From Candidatus Raymondbacteria bacterium RIFOXYA2_FULL_49_16 (GTDB lineage: Bacteria; Fibrobacterota; OXYB2-FULL-49-7; XYB2-FULL-49-35): a DNA stretch of 19,682 nt. Position 1 is the stretch's first letter. Each line of letters starts with the position of its first letter. Shown here one piece after another: positions 3,320 through 14,140 of the stretch. The notes below the pieces were generated by a model. It saw nothing but the letters and a program-made list of their open reading frames with translations, had not been told where the DNA came from and did not search any database. Both the position numbers and the translations under genes were made by a program. The stretch covers positions 1 through 19,682 of the forward strand of contig MFYT01000112.1 of assembly GCA_001789205.1 (NCBI GenBank), given 5' to 3'.

Positions 3320-4012
3320 ATGCACATCCTTATCGTGGATGATTCCAAGACAATCCGCTTTATGCTCCTCCGCCTTCTTAAAGAACTGGGTTATGATACT
3401 ATCTCAGAGGCCGCTGATGTAGACGCCGCTCTCCTTATAATCCAGAAATCTCCGCCTGATCTCATATTTTCAGACTTTAATATGCCGGGAAAAAATGGGG
3501 TCGATTTTCTTAAAGCAATACGGCAAAACCCCGCTACCGACAAAATACCTTTTATCATGGTCACAACCTTTCACGATAAAAAAATTATCTACGATGCGGT
3601 AAAAGCGGGATTGCAGCACTACATATTCAAACCCATTGAAAAGAACCTTCTTATAGAAAAACTGACTGCGTTGTCGATTAGCCACCACATTCAACCGCCC
3701 GTTGTGGCAATCACCACGCACGTGATAGACTCGAATAAAGTCGGGGACGCTCCGCCGCTCAAAGATGAATCTGGGCCTGCGAAAAAAGAACAGAGCATCT
3801 CATTGGAACAGGAAAATGATATCATTGAACATTTTTTCCTCGTGTTTGACGGAGAAATGACCATACAGGAATTTCATGCATGGGCCGCGGCAAACATACT
3901 GCCTCATTTGCCCAAGGGATGCAAAACGCAATCGTCCGAGCAGCTTCTTGATTTTTTACGTTCAGCCGTCTCTAGCGGAATTCAGTCAGCGTTAAAAAAG
4001 ATCAATTCTTAA
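3320..4012 (+). CDS. CheY-like response regulator receiver with unrecognised C-terminal region
   Basis: Residues 1-120 form a complete receiver domain: acidic pair D7/D8 in ILIVDDS, phospho-acceptor D52 in SDFNMPGKNG, T82 or T83 after FIMV, and K104 in IFKP. A polar linker (about 125-160) leads to a C-terminal region (160-230, starting ISLEQENDIIEHFF) that appears helical and resembles no DNA-binding, HD-GYP, GGDEF or histidine kinase domain known to me. The expected role is a phosphorylation switch in a two-component or chemotaxis-like pathway. No histidine kinase gene is in the window, so the regulator is orphan here. AAGGAGA lies just before the ATG. Two hairpins follow the stop codon, the second a probable terminator. 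The receiver call is firm; the output is unknown. Confidence 0.92.
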   Translation: MHILIVDDSKTIRFMLLRLLKELGYDTISEAADVDAALLIIQKSPPDLIFSDFNMPGKNGVDFLKAIRQNPATDKIPFIMVTTFHDKKIIYDAVKAGLQHYIFKPIEKNLLIEKLTALSISHHIQPPVVAITTHVIDSNKVGDAPPLKDESGPAKKEQSISLEQENDIIEHFFLVFDGEMTIQEFHAWAAANILPHLPKGCKTQSSEQLLDFLRSAVSSGIQSALKKINS

Positions 4013-6006: not shown

Positions 6007-9000
6007 TCACTTCAGCAAGGTAATCCTCTCCGTGAGCATCCTGTCCCCCACGCGCGCCTTGACCATATACACACCCGTGGGTAAATTCGATGCGTTCCAG
6101 ACAATGGAAACGCCGGAATCAGGGCCGCGAACGGTACGGGAGAAATCCTTGACGAGTTTTCCGGAAATGGCATAGACCTTTAAATCCGCGTATAAAGACC
6201 CGCGGCCAATGTTCTGTAAACTGATCGTTGCCGCTGGGTTGAACGGATTCGGTGAACATGTCATGGTAAAAGCAGCGTCGCAATGCACGCCGGATTCGAC
6301 CTGCGTCTCGGGGAACCCTTCGCCCATGATGACATACCGTATCATGTCATTGATCGCGAGAACGGTCAGGTAATTGCGCGCGGTCTGCCATCCGGCAGTA
6401 CCGCCGTCAAGACAATCATTGGAAAAATCATACCCGCCCGAACCGCAGCTTCTTGGATGTACGCCGTCTGAAAGAAGACCAATGCCGCCATGGTCGACCG
6501 CCCATTGGTACATGTCGATATAGGGGATTTTACGGCTGACGCACAACGCCCGCACCTTGTTGTTGTAGGGCGCAATAAGCGAATCACGGTCCGCTTTCCA
6601 TCCTGTCTCAAGGGAACCATCAAACGGCGGGATAAGATACACAAGCGGCATGACGCCCGCATCCATGAGCTGCTGAAGAATGTCCCGGTATTCAAGCGTG
6701 TCGGGCCAGCAGGGATCGCAGCGGCAGCCGGTACCCGGATAGGTGCAGTTGCCCCAATCGAGGGGAGCAGCATCAATGCAGTTGTTGGTGCCGATCATGA
6801 CAGTCGCTATCATGGGTCTGTCGCTGGCAAGCACCGGGGCGACCACGGAACTGACCCATCCGATACTTTGCCCGGATTGGTTCCCGTGCGCCACTCCCTT
6901 GGAATTGAGCATCCAATCATTTTGACGCGACGTTGAATCCAGGAATGCGTTGATTCCGGTCGCATTGGAAATATTCGTGATAGTGTTGTCCAGTTCAAGC
7001 CAGTACATGTTCTGGTTGGTGATGCTGTTCCCGAATGTGGCCACCCGGTATGTGTTCCAACCGCTGTCCCAGACGCAGTGGTGTAAATGGCGGAGGTTTT
7101 GGACAATGCCTTGGTCAAACACGGCCCGGTAATCGTCGATGTCTGTCCCGCTGCCGCCGGAAAGGTCGGTAGTCGCTGAATTGCCGTTCGGATATGCGCA
7201 TTGACTCCCTACTCCGCCTGTTGTCGTGGAACGTCCTTCGTTGGGCACCATGCCCGGGTTTGTCAGCTTGACCCAATGGTCTTTGACCCCCATCTGGCCC
7301 TGTGTGCCAAAAGGAGCGGCAATGACCGCTGTGGCATACGGCTTTCCGGAAAAATCAGTATTGGTGTATTCATTGCCTTCAACAGTATCTGAGACCGTAT
7401 AAATAGTCCCTTCGGTAGAACCGGTCATGTTGCCAAAATTATAGGTAAGAACCAACCTGTCCGTTGCGGAGCGTACGGTGTGGTCAATATCGTAATGCAT
7501 GCGAAGAAACGCCCGGTCTATTCCCGACTGCGTCCCGGTCTGGTTCTGGGTCAAGGAAAGCTTCATTGAGGCGGTTGCAGGACCACCGGCTATAGGATAG
7601 CGCAATTTTGATATCTTGGCACTGCCATTATCGATGAGGGTTGTCATCCAGTTGTCCTGGCCATTGCGGGCATCGGATACGCGGGCTGTTTCCGTGGCAT
7701 CGTTTCCCGCCCCCATTAACAGGGAAACCTCATAGGCGCCGCTATAGGTGCTGGGAGGATTGGGAATTGAATAATGATATGAACCCGAAAGGGCTTTGAT
7801 AGAGCCGTCACGCGGCGCCCGCACAGTCGTCACCGCGTCAAAGGTCGCGCTTGCCGTTGCGGTAAGCGTCTCATCATCGTCATATTTATACATCCTGAGT
7901 GTGTTTGTTCCGCAGCGAAGCATTGGCAAGCTTCCGGGGTTAAGCACAAATTTAGTAATAATGGTCAATACAGTGACCTTCATTCCCGCTTGGGGCAGGG
8001 TCACGCGCACAAGATAATCATACAACTCATTAAGCCCGGGGACCGCGGCGCCTGTGAACGATGTCCATGTTTTTCCCATGTTCGTGGACACTTCTTTGAC
8101 AGGAGTGCCACCAGTCACGGTCGCGTCGAAGGAACTTGAACTCATGGGATATGGCGTGTGTATGGCCCAGGTAATGGACGCATTGTCAGCAAGCGCCGCT
8201 GCCCCATCGTTGACAAGGTTTATTTGGACATCCTCGTATATGCCGTCAAAATAATCGTTATACGCGCTGCCGATTGCGGGCTGATACACCATGATGCCGT
8301 CTGACATGACTTTGTTCCAGTCAGTAGCGGAATTCATGGTGCTTGCCCATTCATTGTTTAATGCGTCCCAGTTCATCTGGATGGACTCCCCTTCGCGCAG
8401 CGAATAACTCATGTCGTGGAAATGTTCGTACGAGTCCCAAAAACAATAACAATTACCCGACCTGCTTCCCGCTGAATATGCGGCAGTCACATTGTCTACA
8501 ACGCTGGCCAGGTCAACATCGAAATAGTATTTTGGCCTGATATAGATGTTCGGGCTATATTGAAGGTTTTTGAAATAATTCGGGTTCGCGTCCCATTCCG
8601 CCAGTGAAGCCATATGGGTGCCGTACGCCGCCCAGCCACCCTCATCAAGATCCAGGTAATGCCATTGTCCATTGTAGTAAATTTCACACACACTGTGGAT
8701 AAATCCGCCGTTTTTAAGGAAATACCGCCGGCCTTCCAAACCAAGCCATTCAAAAAGCCCTTCCTGAATAGCGGACGATGGGCCGCAATAGCCGGTCCCG
8801 TAATTGTTCCATACTTTTATCGGATCGTTTATTGCCACGCCTTTTTCAAAAGCGGTCTCAATGACCGAATGGTGCCAAATGCTGTATTTCTGGGTCGCTG
8901 CCCAGTTCCATGAGAAGTCACAGATATCAGGTTCACGGTCAAGGGCGCGCCTGCCGTCAAAGAACCAGTGATAGACAGCCTTAATATATGGTTCTATTTG

Positions 9001-9207
9001 GGTCTGGTCTGTTGTTTTATGGACAGAGGGGAGATGTTTGTCCGCAACGCCTCCGGAATAATCAGGCAGGTAGTCTTCGTTAAAAATGGTTTCGTAGTTG
9101 TAAATATTTATCGCGAATTTTGATTTTACCCATGGACTTTTAAATTTCGCGAAAGAGACCCCCGGCAGGGTGCACAGAATGATGAGAACGCATGCAGCGA
9201 GTTTCAT
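6007..9207 (-). CDS. Secreted transglutaminase-like / SGNH hydrolase fusion with sorting domain
   Basis: The start is ATG 9207, because AGGAGG lies 6 bases upstream and a signal peptide follows (MKLAACVLIILCTLPGVSFA); an in-frame ATG at 9228 has no such support. The protein has 1066 residues. Region 1 is transglutaminase/papain-like, with Cys141 in GTGYCGPSS, His171 in GFIHSVCEIYYNGQWHYLDLD and a following Asp (186 or 188) as a plausible triad. The middle (about 300-710) is Thr/Ser-rich and probably beta-sandwich. Region 3 (about 718-960) is an SGNH hydrolase: block I GNSIT with Ser728 (Asp of GDS replaced by Asn), GTNN block III, and D914/H917 in SDGVHP. The last 85 or so residues (PNPFNP ... 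WNASNLPTGVYMVKA ... ITLLK) are a T9SS type A-like sorting domain. Likely role: extracellular esterase. It is the last gene of a three-gene run. Confidence 0.85.
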   Translation of the reverse strand: MKLAACVLIILCTLPGVSFAKFKSPWVKSKFAINIYNYETIFNEDYLPDYSGGVADKHLPSVHKTTDQTQIEPYIKAVYHWFFDGRRALDREPDICDFSWNWAATQKYSIWHHSVIETAFEKGVAINDPIKVWNNYGTGYCGPSSAIQEGLFEWLGLEGRRYFLKNGGFIHSVCEIYYNGQWHYLDLDEGGWAAYGTHMASLAEWDANPNYFKNLQYSPNIYIRPKYYFDVDLASVVDNVTAAYSAGSRSGNCYCFWDSYEHFHDMSYSLREGESIQMNWDALNNEWASTMNSATDWNKVMSDGIMVYQPAIGSAYNDYFDGIYEDVQINLVNDGAAALADNASITWAIHTPYPMSSSSFDATVTGGTPVKEVSTNMGKTWTSFTGAAVPGLNELYDYLVRVTLPQAGMKVTVLTIITKFVLNPGSLPMLRCGTNTLRMYKYDDDETLTATASATFDAVTTVRAPRDGSIKALSGSYHYSIPNPPSTYSGAYEVSLLMGAGNDATETARVSDARNGQDNWMTTLIDNGSAKISKLRYPIAGGPATASMKLSLTQNQTGTQSGIDRAFLRMHYDIDHTVRSATDRLVLTYNFGNMTGSTEGTIYTVSDTVEGNEYTNTDFSGKPYATAVIAAPFGTQGQMGVKDHWVKLTNPGMVPNEGRSTTTGGVGSQCAYPNGNSATTDLSGGSGTDIDDYRAVFDQGIVQNLRHLHHCVWDSGWNTYRVATFGNSITNQNMYWLELDNTITNISNATGINAFLDSTSRQNDWMLNSKGVAHGNQSGQSIGWVSSVVAPVLASDRPMIATVMIGTNNCIDAAPLDWGNCTYPGTGCRCDPCWPDTLEYRDILQQLMDAGVMPLVYLIPPFDGSLETGWKADRDSLIAPYNNKVRALCVSRKIPYIDMYQWAVDHGGIGLLSDGVHPRSCGSGGYDFSNDCLDGGTAGWQTARNYLTVLAINDMIRYVIMGEGFPETQVESGVHCDAAFTMTCSPNPFNPAATISLQNIGRGSLYADLKVYAISGKLVKDFSRTVRGPDSGVSIVWNASNLPTGVYMVKARVGDRMLTERITLLK

Positions 9208-9244
9208 GAAATTCCTCCTTTGCAGCAAAATTATGCGATAGTTC

Positions 9245-11407
9245 TTATTTAATCAATATTATCTGTTTTGTTAAAGCAACGCTTCCAGCGGTTGCTTTAA
9301 CTATATAAATCCCAGAAGAAAAAGCTGTGGCGTCCCATACGGCGCTTGCCCGGTGCTGGGACGCATGAAGAGCGAGTTTGGCAACGCAATGCCCGGAAAC
9401 ATCGTATATCCGGACATCGCCCAGGCCGTCCAGACCAATGCCCTGGACCGTGATCCTGGTGCTCGGATTAAACGGGTTCGGGTTCACTGTGATGCGCCGT
9501 TGCCCCAGCTGCCTGGCGAATTTCTCCGCGCCAGTGACTGGTACCAGAGGAACCATGACAAAACGGCTGCCGCCGCTGCTGCTGGTCCCGGTCTTTATGG
9601 AAAAATCGGAAAAAGTCACCAGACCCAAGGAATCGGCCGTGACCGTATCAATCTGATATAGGCTGTTCGTATTGCCAACCGCGGTATTTTTAACGATATA
9701 CTGTTCTCCGGGCATACTGACGAACCGTTGCAGTTTTCTTGGGGTAACATCAGCGACATCATCACCAACCAACGAAGCAATCACAATCTCGTATCTGTTG
9801 ATGGAATCAATCTGGTCTTGATATCCTCCAACACGATATGCCGGGGTGCTCCAGATGAAGTTACGGTTAAAATCATAATTCATGTCTAGCGGGGCATCGG
9901 GCAAGGGAAGAATGGGGTTTGATTGCGCGTCTGAAAATGCGGGATACGAATGGTTTTTGCGTATCTCCATTGTCTGGTCGTTCGAATTACCGTCGCAATA
10001 ATGGCCGGAATGCCCGTTCAACCGTCCAAGCCATCCTCTTTTGGTGGCGTTCAGGTTTGTATAGTAATTTTTTCCTTGCTGCGGCCAATTGACGCTGTTA
10101 TCCATGCCACCGGAACAGAGGGCGATGAACGGCATATCAAGACCGGGATGATCGAGGAGATACCGTTCAAGATTGAACCATTCATGAACGGTCATGCCCC
10201 CGAAATTTTCAGTCAGCCATTCGCTCCGCCAGCCCGTAAAAGCCACTTTCATATTGTCATTGGCGTTGTCTCCCCAGCTTGCTTCGCAATTGGTCAGCCA
10301 CTGCCAGGTCATTTCAAGAAAATTGGTCGGCGGCACATTGGCCCTTCCATAGGCGAAAAAGTCCGGGTAATTCTGGAGAAACATCAATGTACCGCCGCCG
10401 CCCATTGAACCGCCCCTGACTGAAATAAAGTTGGTGTCAATGCGATTTGAATAATAGGGCTCCTGTAAAATCATCCATTTCAACAAATTCATTATTCGCG
10501 CCTGATCAAAATTCACCACAGGCCCTGTTGTTGGTACAGGATCGCCGTCGCCGTATCTAATCTTCGATGTATCAAATTGATGTGTCTGGCTGTATCCAAA
10601 CCACCAATTGCCATTGCCGTAGGTTTTTATTTCAATGCCGGAGCAGAAGTATACGCACCAATTGCCGCGAGAATCCATGCTGCCACTATTCACAATACCC
10701 GGGTATCCATCCACATATACATTCAAAGGCAACCGGGTAGCGGTCCGGCGGTAATTCAAGGGAACGCCGACCCAATATACATAAGCCTTTGTGTTGGCCA
10801 TGGTCGTGTTGAACGTATCTATATCTACATATTGATAATATAAGCGCGCTGCCATGGAATCAGATTGCCAGAAAAGAACAGGTGTTGGGTCCTGAACAAT
10901 CTCGCTGATGGGACCCGCGCTGTTTCCCGCATCCACGGTCTTGTCCTCAGTGCCGCCTACAATTGCCGTGACTGCATAGTAATAATCCCCGGGAACATGC
11001 GTGGTGAGTACGATCATGCCCACGCCATCGGGAACAGGGACGCCGATGCCAGGCTGTGAATCGTCTATGGGGTTTATCACGTTCCGGGTAATGGTTACCA
11101 GCGGCCTGAAATTCGTGCTGAATTGCGCGCCATTGTCGGTCAGAGTCAGTTCTTTGGCCATGACCGGGTTATAGGCTGAATTCTGAGCGACCTGAAATCG
11201 TTTGTTGGATTCAATTAAATCTCCCGCTGTTATCGGAGATGTCTTGGAGTAAATGACATATGCCTGGCCGTTTACGACCTCGTTCCAGGTAATGAAAACC
11301 TGACCTGACCTGAAAAAGGCCGTGCAATTAGTGGGACGCGCGGAAAATACCGGCGATTGAACGGCCAGTATGCCCAGAAGCGCAAAAAAAACTGAAAAAC
11401 CTTTCAT
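9245..11407 (-). CDS. Secreted alpha/beta-hydrolase esterase with sorting domain
   Basis: The 720-residue protein has a signal peptide (MKGFSVFFALLGILAVQSPVFS, then ARPTN), an N-terminal fibronectin-III-like region (about 24-150, with SGQVFITWNEV and YYYAVTAI) and an alpha/beta-hydrolase domain (about 205-485). The nucleophile elbow is GGSMGGGG with Ser334. D436 in GGMDNSVNW and H466 or H469 in NGHSGHY are plausible partners, as in esterases and S9-like peptidases. A C-terminal sorting domain (about 640-720: NPNPFNPST ... IYDVSG ... SSGIYIVKA ... IILIK) predicts type IX-like secretion. A strong GGAGGAGGA precedes the ATG. It lies 48 bases after the upstream gene and 37 bases before the transglutaminase/SGNH gene. 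The substrate is unknown; a carbohydrate ester is an inference from context. Confidence 0.85.
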   Translation of the reverse strand: MKGFSVFFALLGILAVQSPVFSARPTNCTAFFRSGQVFITWNEVVNGQAYVIYSKTSPITAGDLIESNKRFQVAQNSAYNPVMAKELTLTDNGAQFSTNFRPLVTITRNVINPIDDSQPGIGVPVPDGVGMIVLTTHVPGDYYYAVTAIVGGTEDKTVDAGNSAGPISEIVQDPTPVLFWQSDSMAARLYYQYVDIDTFNTTMANTKAYVYWVGVPLNYRRTATRLPLNVYVDGYPGIVNSGSMDSRGNWCVYFCSGIEIKTYGNGNWWFGYSQTHQFDTSKIRYGDGDPVPTTGPVVNFDQARIMNLLKWMILQEPYYSNRIDTNFISVRGGSMGGGGTLMFLQNYPDFFAYGRANVPPTNFLEMTWQWLTNCEASWGDNANDNMKVAFTGWRSEWLTENFGGMTVHEWFNLERYLLDHPGLDMPFIALCSGGMDNSVNWPQQGKNYYTNLNATKRGWLGRLNGHSGHYCDGNSNDQTMEIRKNHSYPAFSDAQSNPILPLPDAPLDMNYDFNRNFIWSTPAYRVGGYQDQIDSINRYEIVIASLVGDDVADVTPRKLQRFVSMPGEQYIVKNTAVGNTNSLYQIDTVTADSLGLVTFSDFSIKTGTSSSGGSRFVMVPLVPVTGAEKFARQLGQRRITVNPNPFNPSTRITVQGIGLDGLGDVRIYDVSGHCVAKLALHASQHRASAVWDATAFSSGIYIVKATAGSVALTKQIILIK

Positions 11408-11455: not shown

Positions 11456-12949
11456 TCATTTCAGCAAAAAAACCTGTTTCGTCATGGTTTTGCCTTGTAG
11501 CGCAACTTTTACAATATAAATCCCTGATGGACGATGTTCCGCATTCCACATAATACCATGCGCAAGCTGCGCTCCATTGGCCACGCGTTTTTCTATAAGG
11601 GTTCCATTGAAACCGTATATGCTCATTTCGCAGGTGTTGTCAGCGCCAATGCCGGAGACAGAAATCCTCGTGCGCGGATTAAAAGGATTCGGCAATACGG
11701 ACATAACCGCATTTGCCCCTGAGACAACGGCCCTGGCAATCCGGCTGTTACCGGGCACGGCAATCTGATAAACATGAACATGCGGTTCCTCTGCCTGACG
11801 GTCTGTAATATAAAGTCTCCCGGTCTCAGGATCATAGCCCGCGCCGGTCATCGTGCAACTGCCGTCGGAACACATTTCATCCATTGTCCATACCCCATAG
11901 GGACGTATTTCCCAGCACTGTTTGGCCCCATTTTTTACCTGGAGCAGATCATTCGCGTCATATGCCCATATCCGGTGAACATAAGGATAGGCATGGCTTC
12001 CTTTGCCGCCCAGCACAGGATCATAACATACGATTTCCGGGGGATGGTCGTAACAAAATTCTCCAATACCGTGCGAACCGAAAAACAGCACGCTCCTGCT
12101 TCCCGGGGGAAAGGCGATGCCGCAAAACACCGAACTCCAGTTGAAAAGATCGCACGTATCACCAATCTGGCAGTCCTCCAATTTATGGTCGTTCGGATAA
12201 AAGACCACTGTGGTTCCGGGAATAGTATCTCTGACGCCGACGTCATCAGGATCAAAAACAGTGGCTGCCGGCCCGCCTGTGCTGCAGCTCAAAATCGAAA
12301 GGGCCTGGCCGCCCGAGAGAGCGGGTCCGCCAAGAAGCGGTTGCCATTCCAGAGGTATTGTCGTCATATGCGCGGCCACTGAACGCGGGTTTGCCACAGC
12401 GTCCATGGCGAAAAACCCCTGGAAATCATTGTCCAGGGACAGATTGAAACCAGAGACACCATGGGAATTGACCTGTGCGCACGCTCCGTCGTAAAAACTT
12501 GCCGCAGTGACAATAAGCCGTCCGTTATAGGGTAACATGCCATAAAGACGCGACATATAGCCGATATCCGTTTGAATATGTCCGTCAGTGACATCAGCAA
12601 AGGCCTGCAGCACAGTGGCACGGTGCATGCTGCTGTAGGTAGTGGTTTTAACCAGCATAGAGTCAGGCGGCACTTCTATTTGCGCCACATTCCCAGGATA
12701 CCAATTATGGCCTTCCATGAAAAGTGTGTGTTTGCCAGTTGAAGGATCTTTGTAGTACGTGACCGCGGCGCCGCTATACCCAAACCGTGAAGTCCCAATT
12801 TCCGCGGTTGACATGGAAAAAGCGCCGATGTAGGTAAAATCAGCTCTTTGGATAAGCGGCTCCTGTTCAGGGGCAATACCATTGACAAATTCAGGCAGAA
12901 CGCAAAGACCCAGGAATAGTGTAAAAATGAAATTAATAAAAATTCTCAT
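11456..12949 (-). CDS. Secreted protein of unknown fold with sorting domain
   Basis: ATG 12949 is preferred over ATG 12967: GAGGGGG lies 6 bases upstream and a signal peptide follows at once (MRIFINFIFTLFLGLCVLPEFVNG). The protein has 497 residues. The mature part opens LIQRADFTYIGAFSMS, an N-terminal pattern I associate with uncharacterised secreted proteins. It contains short repeats of the kind seen in beta-propellers (for example AGYDPETGRLYITDR and YDPVLGGKG). It has many Cys residues (DCQIGDTCDLF, CSDGSC), probably in disulphides. No catalytic triad is obvious. The C-terminal 85 residues (LPNPFNPRTRI ... IYGFNG ... PSGIYIVKV ... VFLLK) are a T9SS-like sorting domain. It is the first gene of the run that starts divergently from the regulator, hence the most directly regulated. 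Confidence 0.8.
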   Translation of the reverse strand: MRIFINFIFTLFLGLCVLPEFVNGIAPEQEPLIQRADFTYIGAFSMSTAEIGTSRFGYSGAAVTYYKDPSTGKHTLFMEGHNWYPGNVAQIEVPPDSMLVKTTTYSSMHRATVLQAFADVTDGHIQTDIGYMSRLYGMLPYNGRLIVTAASFYDGACAQVNSHGVSGFNLSLDNDFQGFFAMDAVANPRSVAAHMTTIPLEWQPLLGGPALSGGQALSILSCSTGGPAATVFDPDDVGVRDTIPGTTVVFYPNDHKLEDCQIGDTCDLFNWSSVFCGIAFPPGSRSVLFFGSHGIGEFCYDHPPEIVCYDPVLGGKGSHAYPYVHRIWAYDANDLLQVKNGAKQCWEIRPYGVWTMDEMCSDGSCTMTGAGYDPETGRLYITDRQAEEPHVHVYQIAVPGNSRIARAVVSGANAVMSVLPNPFNPRTRISVSGIGADNTCEMSIYGFNGTLIEKRVANGAQLAHGIMWNAEHRPSGIYIVKVALQGKTMTKQVFLLK

Positions 12950-12979
12950 ACCCAACCCCCTCTGCATAAATATGAGTCT

Positions 12980-12985
12980 TTTATA
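12980..12985 (-). promoter_or_regulatory. Candidate -10 box of the three-gene operon
   Basis: Read on the minus strand, TATAAA lies about 30 bases before the ATG at 12949 and directly downstream of one palindrome copy (12988-12998). No strong -35 was found at 17 bases, which fits a promoter needing or limited by a regulator. Weak evidence. Confidence 0.35.
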
Positions 12986-12987
12986 AG

Positions 12988-12998
12988 TTATCTAATAA
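12988..12998. promoter_or_regulatory. Putative operator, copy 1
   Basis: TTATCTAATAA, the reverse complement of the site at 13071-13081. Each copy is itself a palindrome, TTAT-NNN-ATAA. This one would fall between the -35 and -10 positions of the minus-strand promoter, so a bound repressor would block it. Confidence 0.5.
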
Positions 12999-13070
12999 TT
13001 TAACTTTGTTTAATCGCTTACGCAATTTCGTATTAAATAATATCAAGGTAATTTCATATTATTTTATATT

Positions 13071-13081
13071 TTATTAGATAA
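13071..13081. promoter_or_regulatory. Putative operator, copy 2
   Basis: TTATTAGATAA, ending 3 bases before the regulator's ATG. A protein bound here would block initiation of the regulator gene, consistent with autoregulation. The centre is 83 bp from copy 1. Confidence 0.5.
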
Positions 13082-13084
13082 ATT

Positions 13085-14140
13085 ATGAAATACCTGACCA
13101 TTTATAAACAATTAAAAGCGGATATTTTAGCGGGAAAATATTCACCTAATACAAAACTTCCCTATCTCAAGCAGCTTGGGATCTTATACGATTCCGCCCT
13201 TGGAACGCTTGAACGGGCAATACGTCTTCTGGAAACCGAGGGCCTGGTGGTAGCAATACCATCACAGGGGATTTATGTAAGAGACCCCAAGGCCCTTTTT
13301 ATCCAGCCGAACTTTAGAAAAGAGAAGATTCGCATCGCAATGCTTTCAAGGGCGGATCCACTCGATGCGATGAGTGCGGGGTTTTTCAGGGACATCATTG
13401 GTGGAATCACTACTTCCGAATGGATGCAAGGAGGCACCATTTATCCCATTTTCTGCCATGGCAAGGACATCCTTGAAATTTATAAGGAGATTAATGTCCT
13501 TGAGATCAACGCGATAATCACAGTGGATTTCTTCGACGAAGGCCTAAGGAGGGCGATAGAGACTATTAAATTGCCGATCGTTCACGCTGATCTTGCTGAT
13601 ATCGGGAGCAAAAAGCCCATTATAACCCCCAACAATCAGCAGGGAGGAGAAATCGCTCTTGAAAAACTCTATTCCCTGGGCCACCGAAGCATTCTCTATC
13701 TAGGGCATCATATGCAAAAACAGCGGAAAATGGACCCAATGGGCATGCTTCGATGGTTAGGCGCGTCTGAAAAGGCGAAAAAGTTGAATTTCCGCGATCT
13801 TCGGTTTGAAACCGCCACATATCTTGAGTCAAAAACCGCGGAAGAGGTCCAGGCGGCAATACGGAAACATAGTGACTGCACAGGTTTCATTTTTGGCAGC
13901 ATGACGTGTTTTCATGAGGCAAAAAGCAATCTGGAACATAGGACGATCAAAGGGCGTGAAAACATCGACGCGGTGATATTCAGCCTCCAGCATGGCCCCG
14001 AATCCCTCGATAAGAAACCAGTGATATTCTGCAGGTTTAACGGAAATAAAATGGGCAATCTGGCGGCAAAGACCCTGCTGGACAAATCATGGTCGTATCC
14101 GAAAATACAATACCTGCCCATGTTCCTGGAAAGCGATTAA
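13085..14140 (+). CDS. GntR-type transcriptional regulator with LacI-like sensor domain
   Basis: The 351-residue protein begins with a GntR winged helix-turn-helix (1-68): IYKQLKADILAGKYSPNTKLP, a recognition region GTLERAIRLLETEGLV, and the wing QGIYVRDP. Residues about 80-347 form a periplasmic-binding-like sensor of the LacI/AraR kind: KIRIAMLSRADP, INAIITVDFFDEG, PIVHADLADIG, NNQQGGEIALEKLYSLGHRSILYLGHH, then CTGFIFGS and PVIFCRFNGNKMGNLAAKTLLD. Such regulators bind sugars and leave or bind operators upon effector binding. It is transcribed divergently from the three-gene secreted operon and convergently with the acetylesterase gene, so control of one or both runs is likely. No Shine-Dalgarno sequence precedes the ATG. 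The effector, probably a sugar or sugar ester, cannot be deduced. Confidence 0.92.
   Translation: MKYLTIYKQLKADILAGKYSPNTKLPYLKQLGILYDSALGTLERAIRLLETEGLVVAIPSQGIYVRDPKALFIQPNFRKEKIRIAMLSRADPLDAMSAGFFRDIIGGITTSEWMQGGTIYPIFCHGKDILEIYKEINVLEINAIITVDFFDEGLRRAIETIKLPIVHADLADIGSKKPIITPNNQQGGEIALEKLYSLGHRSILYLGHHMQKQRKMDPMGMLRWLGASEKAKKLNFRDLRFETATYLESKTAEEVQAAIRKHSDCTGFIFGSMTCFHEAKSNLEHRTIKGRENIDAVIFSLQHGPESLDKKPVIFCRFNGNKMGNLAAKTLLDKSWSYPKIQYLPMFLESD

Follow-up and report, generated by a model that had tools for sequence, protein, structure and literature searches.

Does the pair of short palindromes in the gap between a regulator gene and a divergent operon for secreted proteins serve as an operator, and if so, which protein reads it? 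The locus lies in a window of 19,682 nucleotides that makes up contig G000:C112 in full, so the right-hand operon is cut off before its 5' end; the genome totals 5.43 Mb in 112 contigs. The longest open reading frame of the first divergent gene starts at 12967; its probable start is the ATG at 12949, behind the probable ribosome-binding site AGAGGGGG, and the gap then extends over 12950-13084 (135 bp), where an earlier note on this DNA had taken 12968-13084. A consensus promoter scan gave nothing above shuffles, and no promoter was placed with confidence. The features discussed below are collected in Table 1.

Table 1. Genes and candidate regulatory features around the gap, in window coordinates.
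Feature	Position	Strand	Details
Divergent operon, gene 3	6007-9228	minus	GDSL-type hydrolase with sorting tail
Divergent operon, gene 2	9245-11407	minus	S9-type esterase/peptidase with sorting tail
Divergent operon, gene 1	11456-12949	minus	secreted protein with type IX sorting tail (TIGR04183, 24.1 bits, cut-off 23)
Probable ribosome-binding site of gene 1, AGAGGGGG	12956-12963	minus	6 nt upstream of ATG 12949
Left 23-bp copy, TTATTAGATAACTTATAAAAGAC	12976-12998	minus	operon-side operator candidate; 20/23 against right copy
Left 11-bp core, TTAT-CTA-ATAA, TTATCTAATAA	12988-12998		palindrome, centre 12993
Right 11-bp core, TTAT-TAG-ATAA, TTATTAGATAA	13071-13081		palindrome, centre 13076
Right 23-bp copy, TTATTAGATAAATTATGAAATAC	13071-13093	plus	regulator-side operator candidate; spans regulator ATG
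Regulator, 351 aa	13085-14140	plus	GntR winged helix 3-65; LacI/AraR-type effector domain ~80-351

The 11-bp pair is present as the earlier note described it: TTATTAGATAA is the exact reverse complement of TTATCTAATAA, each is itself a palindrome of the form TTAT-N3-ATAA, and the two centres are 83 bp, or 7.9 helical turns, apart. When the gap is aligned with its reverse complement, the cores extend to an inverted repeat of 23 bp, identical at 20 positions, whose copies are spaced 95 bp (9.05 turns) and have the consensus, read towards the gene, TTAT-TAG-ATAA-(C/A)-TTAT-(A/G)AAA. One copy stands at each end of the gap, and both are oriented alike with respect to the gene that they precede; besides being palindromic, the 23-bp repeat is a directional element in which three half-sites alternate. 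On the left, the copy stops 26 bp short of the ATG at 12949; on the right, it covers the ATG at 13085. The placing of a site at the gene start on either side stands and the right-hand core does adjoin the regulator's start codon, but the full copy actually runs across it.

Between the two copies, at 13031-13068, is a weaker AT-rich inverted repeat with 16-nt arms (88%). Two quite different readings of the 23-bp repeat were considered and set aside. A mobile element with terminal inverted repeats was rejected on the grounds that the genome holds no further copies of the arms, that no flanking duplication is seen, and that the right arm lies inside Met-Lys-Tyr codons conserved in the regulator family. 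An RNA hairpin was dropped since neither transcript would carry both arms if both promoters begin within or close to the copies.

With 77% A+T, the gap calls for caution about chance, as the earlier note had pointed out. Dinucleotide shuffles of the 117-bp gap as first delimited contain an inverted repeat of 11 bp or more in 3.1% of cases and two TTATNNNATAA in 0.5%, this last pattern having been chosen post hoc; a flexible paired-palindrome score of the gap gave P 0.045, and the exact 11-bp inverted repeat, in a second shuffle test, P 0.044. The 11-bp core alone is only marginal against shuffles (P 0.03-0.045), but the extended repeat is beyond chance, with P 0.001 over 12944-13096 (153 bp) and P 0.0065 over 12900-13150 (251 bp), at 4000 shuffles each. 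Nine bases of the right copy encode Met-Lys-Tyr, and without them P is 0.044; since the family keeps these codons for the sake of the protein, the strength of the independent evidence falls between the marginal and the low P values. Such results bear directly on the possibility that the two copies have no operator function and resemble each other only as promoter start regions do where DNA is very rich in A+T, the regulator's conserved ATGAAATAC adding to the likeness. The marginal P of the core, the base composition of the gap and the absence of such pairs from the other paralog gaps speak for it, whereas the 20/23 identity and its low P values speak against it, as does the occurrence of the sequence in two copies here and nowhere else in the genome, where a general promoter element would recur. 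We consider this explanation doubtful.

Genome-wide uniqueness is the strongest single result for the repeat. In 5,431,435 bases TTATCTAATAA occurs at only two places, both in the gap, while a control in which the core pattern is read backwards occurs eight times. The extended motif TTATTAGATAANTTATNAAA has two sites at 0 mismatches, none at 1 or 2 mismatches anywhere in the 5.43-Mb genome, and 15 at 3 mismatches; its control gave 18 matches at up to 3 mismatches. The degenerate pattern TTATNNNATAA, by contrast, is common, being found at 154 places, and pairs of it spaced 57-87 nt number two against one in the control: the specific sequence is special, the degenerate pattern is not. Where the context of near matches was read, they proved to be within open reading frames or next to unrelated genes, for example ones resembling typA and pckG, and the wider regulon for which the earlier note had proposed a scan thus failed to appear. 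The confinement of core and extended motif to this gap is unlike the pattern of a global regulator and points to the adjacent gene. It also speaks, together with the contexts of the near matches, against binding of the sites by some other transcription factor of the cell, which we regard as very improbable.

We therefore turn to the adjacent regulator, which the earlier note took, rightly as it proves, for a GntR/LacI-type hybrid of AraR-like build. Its winged helix matches PF00392 at 47.2 bits (cut-off 27; E 1.8e-12), and its predicted structure (mean pLDDT 86) resembles LacI/GalR-type effector domains, among them those of CelR with cellobiose, CcpA (2jcg: Z 24.3, rmsd 2.8 over 253 residues) and AraR (3tb6: Z 22.1, rmsd 3.1 over 251 residues). 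As modelled, its C-terminal part has the LacI/GalR-type periplasmic-binding-protein fold. In hmmsearch a profile of the regulator family finds both halves of AraR, the DNA-binding domain 4egy at E 3.4e-10 and the effector domain 3tb6 at E 1.2e-13. The regulator is built like AraR, yet is not classed as AraR itself.

That difference is plainest where AraR reads DNA. Its base-contacting residues are Glu52, Arg63, His64, Arg67 and Gln83 (PMC4494728); in an alignment of the family to 4egy, their equivalents in the regulator are Leu28, Leu39, Gly40, Glu43 and Pro59. With the reading residues of AraR replaced, one would expect a site that lacks the customary GT and AC boxes, and with leucine at the position of Arg63 the contact of arginine to G has been lost, in keeping with half-sites that contain neither G nor C. 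We infer from this the step from a lost arginine to AT-only half-sites. The candidate operator cores indeed lack the GT...AC boxes, of which Arg63 is the reader in operators of the AraR type, and where the AraR box of Bacillus subtilis is At(T/A)tGTaCGTAcaa(A/T)T, the core here is TTAT-N3-ATAA. AraR has the same two-domain layout, a GntR winged helix joined to a LacI/GalR-type effector domain, and it too uses paired operators; its boxes, though, are spread over a regulon, while the candidate sites here are confined to one gap.

In spacing the core keeps to the wider family: FadR-type sites usually leave 3 nt between an inner GT and an inner AC, which gives the 4-3-4 arrangement seen in TTAT-N3-ATAA. 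The half-sites TTAT and ATAA themselves are shared with the operator of BioR, a GntR-family regulator of alpha-proteobacteria, which is TTATMKATAA, with a spacer of 2 nt against the 3 nt found here. BioR sites precede the regulator's own gene and, in Paracoccus and Brucella, stand in pairs before target operons, which likens them to the pair in the gap, but BioR belongs to the FadR subfamily and so has an effector domain of another type, and it controls biotin genes where the neighbours here are secreted hydrolases.

The reading that we prefer as the simplest, and consider probably right, is that the 23-bp repeat is the private operator pair of the adjacent regulator, which would act as repressor and autorepressor with one site per promoter: two copies in 5.43 Mb, with none at 1-2 mismatches, are what a dedicated regulator leads one to expect. 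A ligand-free dimer would bind each copy through its TTAT-N3-ATAA core. The left dimer would cover the promoter start region for the three secreted hydrolases or related secreted proteins, and the right one the start of the regulator's own gene, ATG included, resulting in autorepression. Binding of a ligand, probably a sugar or oligosaccharide, to the LacI-like domain would then release the regulator and free both promoters. Such an operator pair is an ordinary, familiar kind of bacterial switch, and a candidate specific to this locus.

Whether the two dimers would act separately or jointly is addressed by the position of their sites. In divergons of the GntR family, jointly acting sites tend to lie in the middle of the gap and sites near the genes tend to serve their own operons (PMC4494728). 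The candidate sites are at the gap ends, a placement that fits separate, operon-specific sites, and the arrangement as a whole, regulator and target operon divergent with a site near each gene, is that of the GntR-family two-site divergons, although the operon-specific ones have been described for the FadR and HutC subfamilies and the regulator here is of AraR type. Each candidate site most likely serves its own promoter through a separate dimer. A refinement of the private-operator reading would have the dimers bind their copies cooperatively and join across the intervening DNA, as in B. subtilis, where the binding of AraR to in-phase operator pairs is cooperative and involves a small loop (PMC4218819). 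The shared domain architecture and the two spacings given above (83 and 95 bp), both near phase, are in its favour; phase agreement is weak evidence, as about one in five spacings falls within a tenth of a turn, and sites at gap ends are of the class read as operon-specific in PMC4494728 (71 of 100 double-site divergons in FadR, 28 of 60 in HutC). A loop of 83-95 bp is within reach, and so possible, but not favoured over separate action; we think it unlikely.

The private-operator reading gains a further dimension from the relatives of the regulator in the same genome. Including that of the gap, there are 16 full-length AraR-like regulators (L003-L018; L018 is flagged with a TGA in its matched stretch), the other 15 being 28-42% identical to it. 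At least 12 of the 16 diverge from a neighbour whose product carries a C-terminal type IX sorting tail or a related tail domain, a count in which some matches are below the Pfam cut-off. The family was not found in other genomes of the phylum (167 searched, E 1e-30), and an orthologue of the regulator appeared neither among 60 relatives, the 167 phylum genomes and plasmids nor in two scans of the genome contigs. The two positions with which the recognition helix reads DNA, 39 and 40, rank with the more variable ones of the domain, at entropies of 2.90 and 2.78 bits; the adjoining Thr41 is invariant. This variability predicts a separate private operator for each paralog, in agreement with the uniqueness of the site in the gap; the same prediction makes the paralogs unusable as a test of conservation of the sites.

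The gaps of the paralogs weigh against the private-operator reading, those of 15 paralogs having, as a rule, no inverted pair comparable to the one here; on the same side are the negative orthologue searches, the part that the Met-Lys-Tyr bases play in the significance and the negative promoter scan. Paired palindromes did not prove to be a general rule among them, best-pair P running from 0.015 to 0.9 over the 16 gaps with no clear overall excess, and an ungapped repeat search singles out the 12950-13084 gap; inverted-repeat signals in the L008, L011 and L017 gaps are weaker and barely above what many tests would be expected to yield. Nor did an operator common to the paralogs emerge: strong blocks are shared only within the close pairs L006/L007 and L015/L016, and the gap of the 13085-14140 regulator is in none of the top block-sharing pairs.

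Several observations were made on the paralogs in passing. The L015 and L016 gaps share a ATTATTTTACCC-TATACT block around position -24 relative to the start of the regulator, which may be an operator or a promoter of that pair, and those of the close paralogs L006 and L007 both keep an inverted repeat, noted by eye, of AATATATAT and ATGTATATT separated by 16 nt. Just downstream of a full-length regulator, L059:1156-1788 (minus) is a shortened paralog with a GntR domain and a partial effector domain, probably a decaying copy. A Shine-Dalgarno sequence is mostly missing at the regulator genes, the mean best match to AGGAGG being 2.4 of 6 against 4.3 for 43 other open reading frames, and at several regulators among L004, L005, L010 and L014-L017 a TATACT/TATATT-like box ends 5-8 nt before the ATG; sequence features of this kind suggest that the regulator messages may be leaderless.

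A broader picture can be offered tentatively, and we would not yet rely on it: that of at least 16 AraR-like regulators, in no other phylum genome searched, most of them facing a gene for a type IX-secreted protein, each of which may have evolved a private operator through changes at the two reading positions of its recognition helix, many seemingly expressed without a ribosome-binding site, with the pair in the gap as the first readable operator of the set. The expansion of regulators around the pair is of more interest than the palindromes themselves. If the private-operator reading is right, it would provide a concrete operator for a large set of regulators that seemingly switch secreted polysaccharide- or ester-degrading enzymes locus by locus, and a test case for how GntR recognition helices without a G-reading arginine choose AT-only sites.
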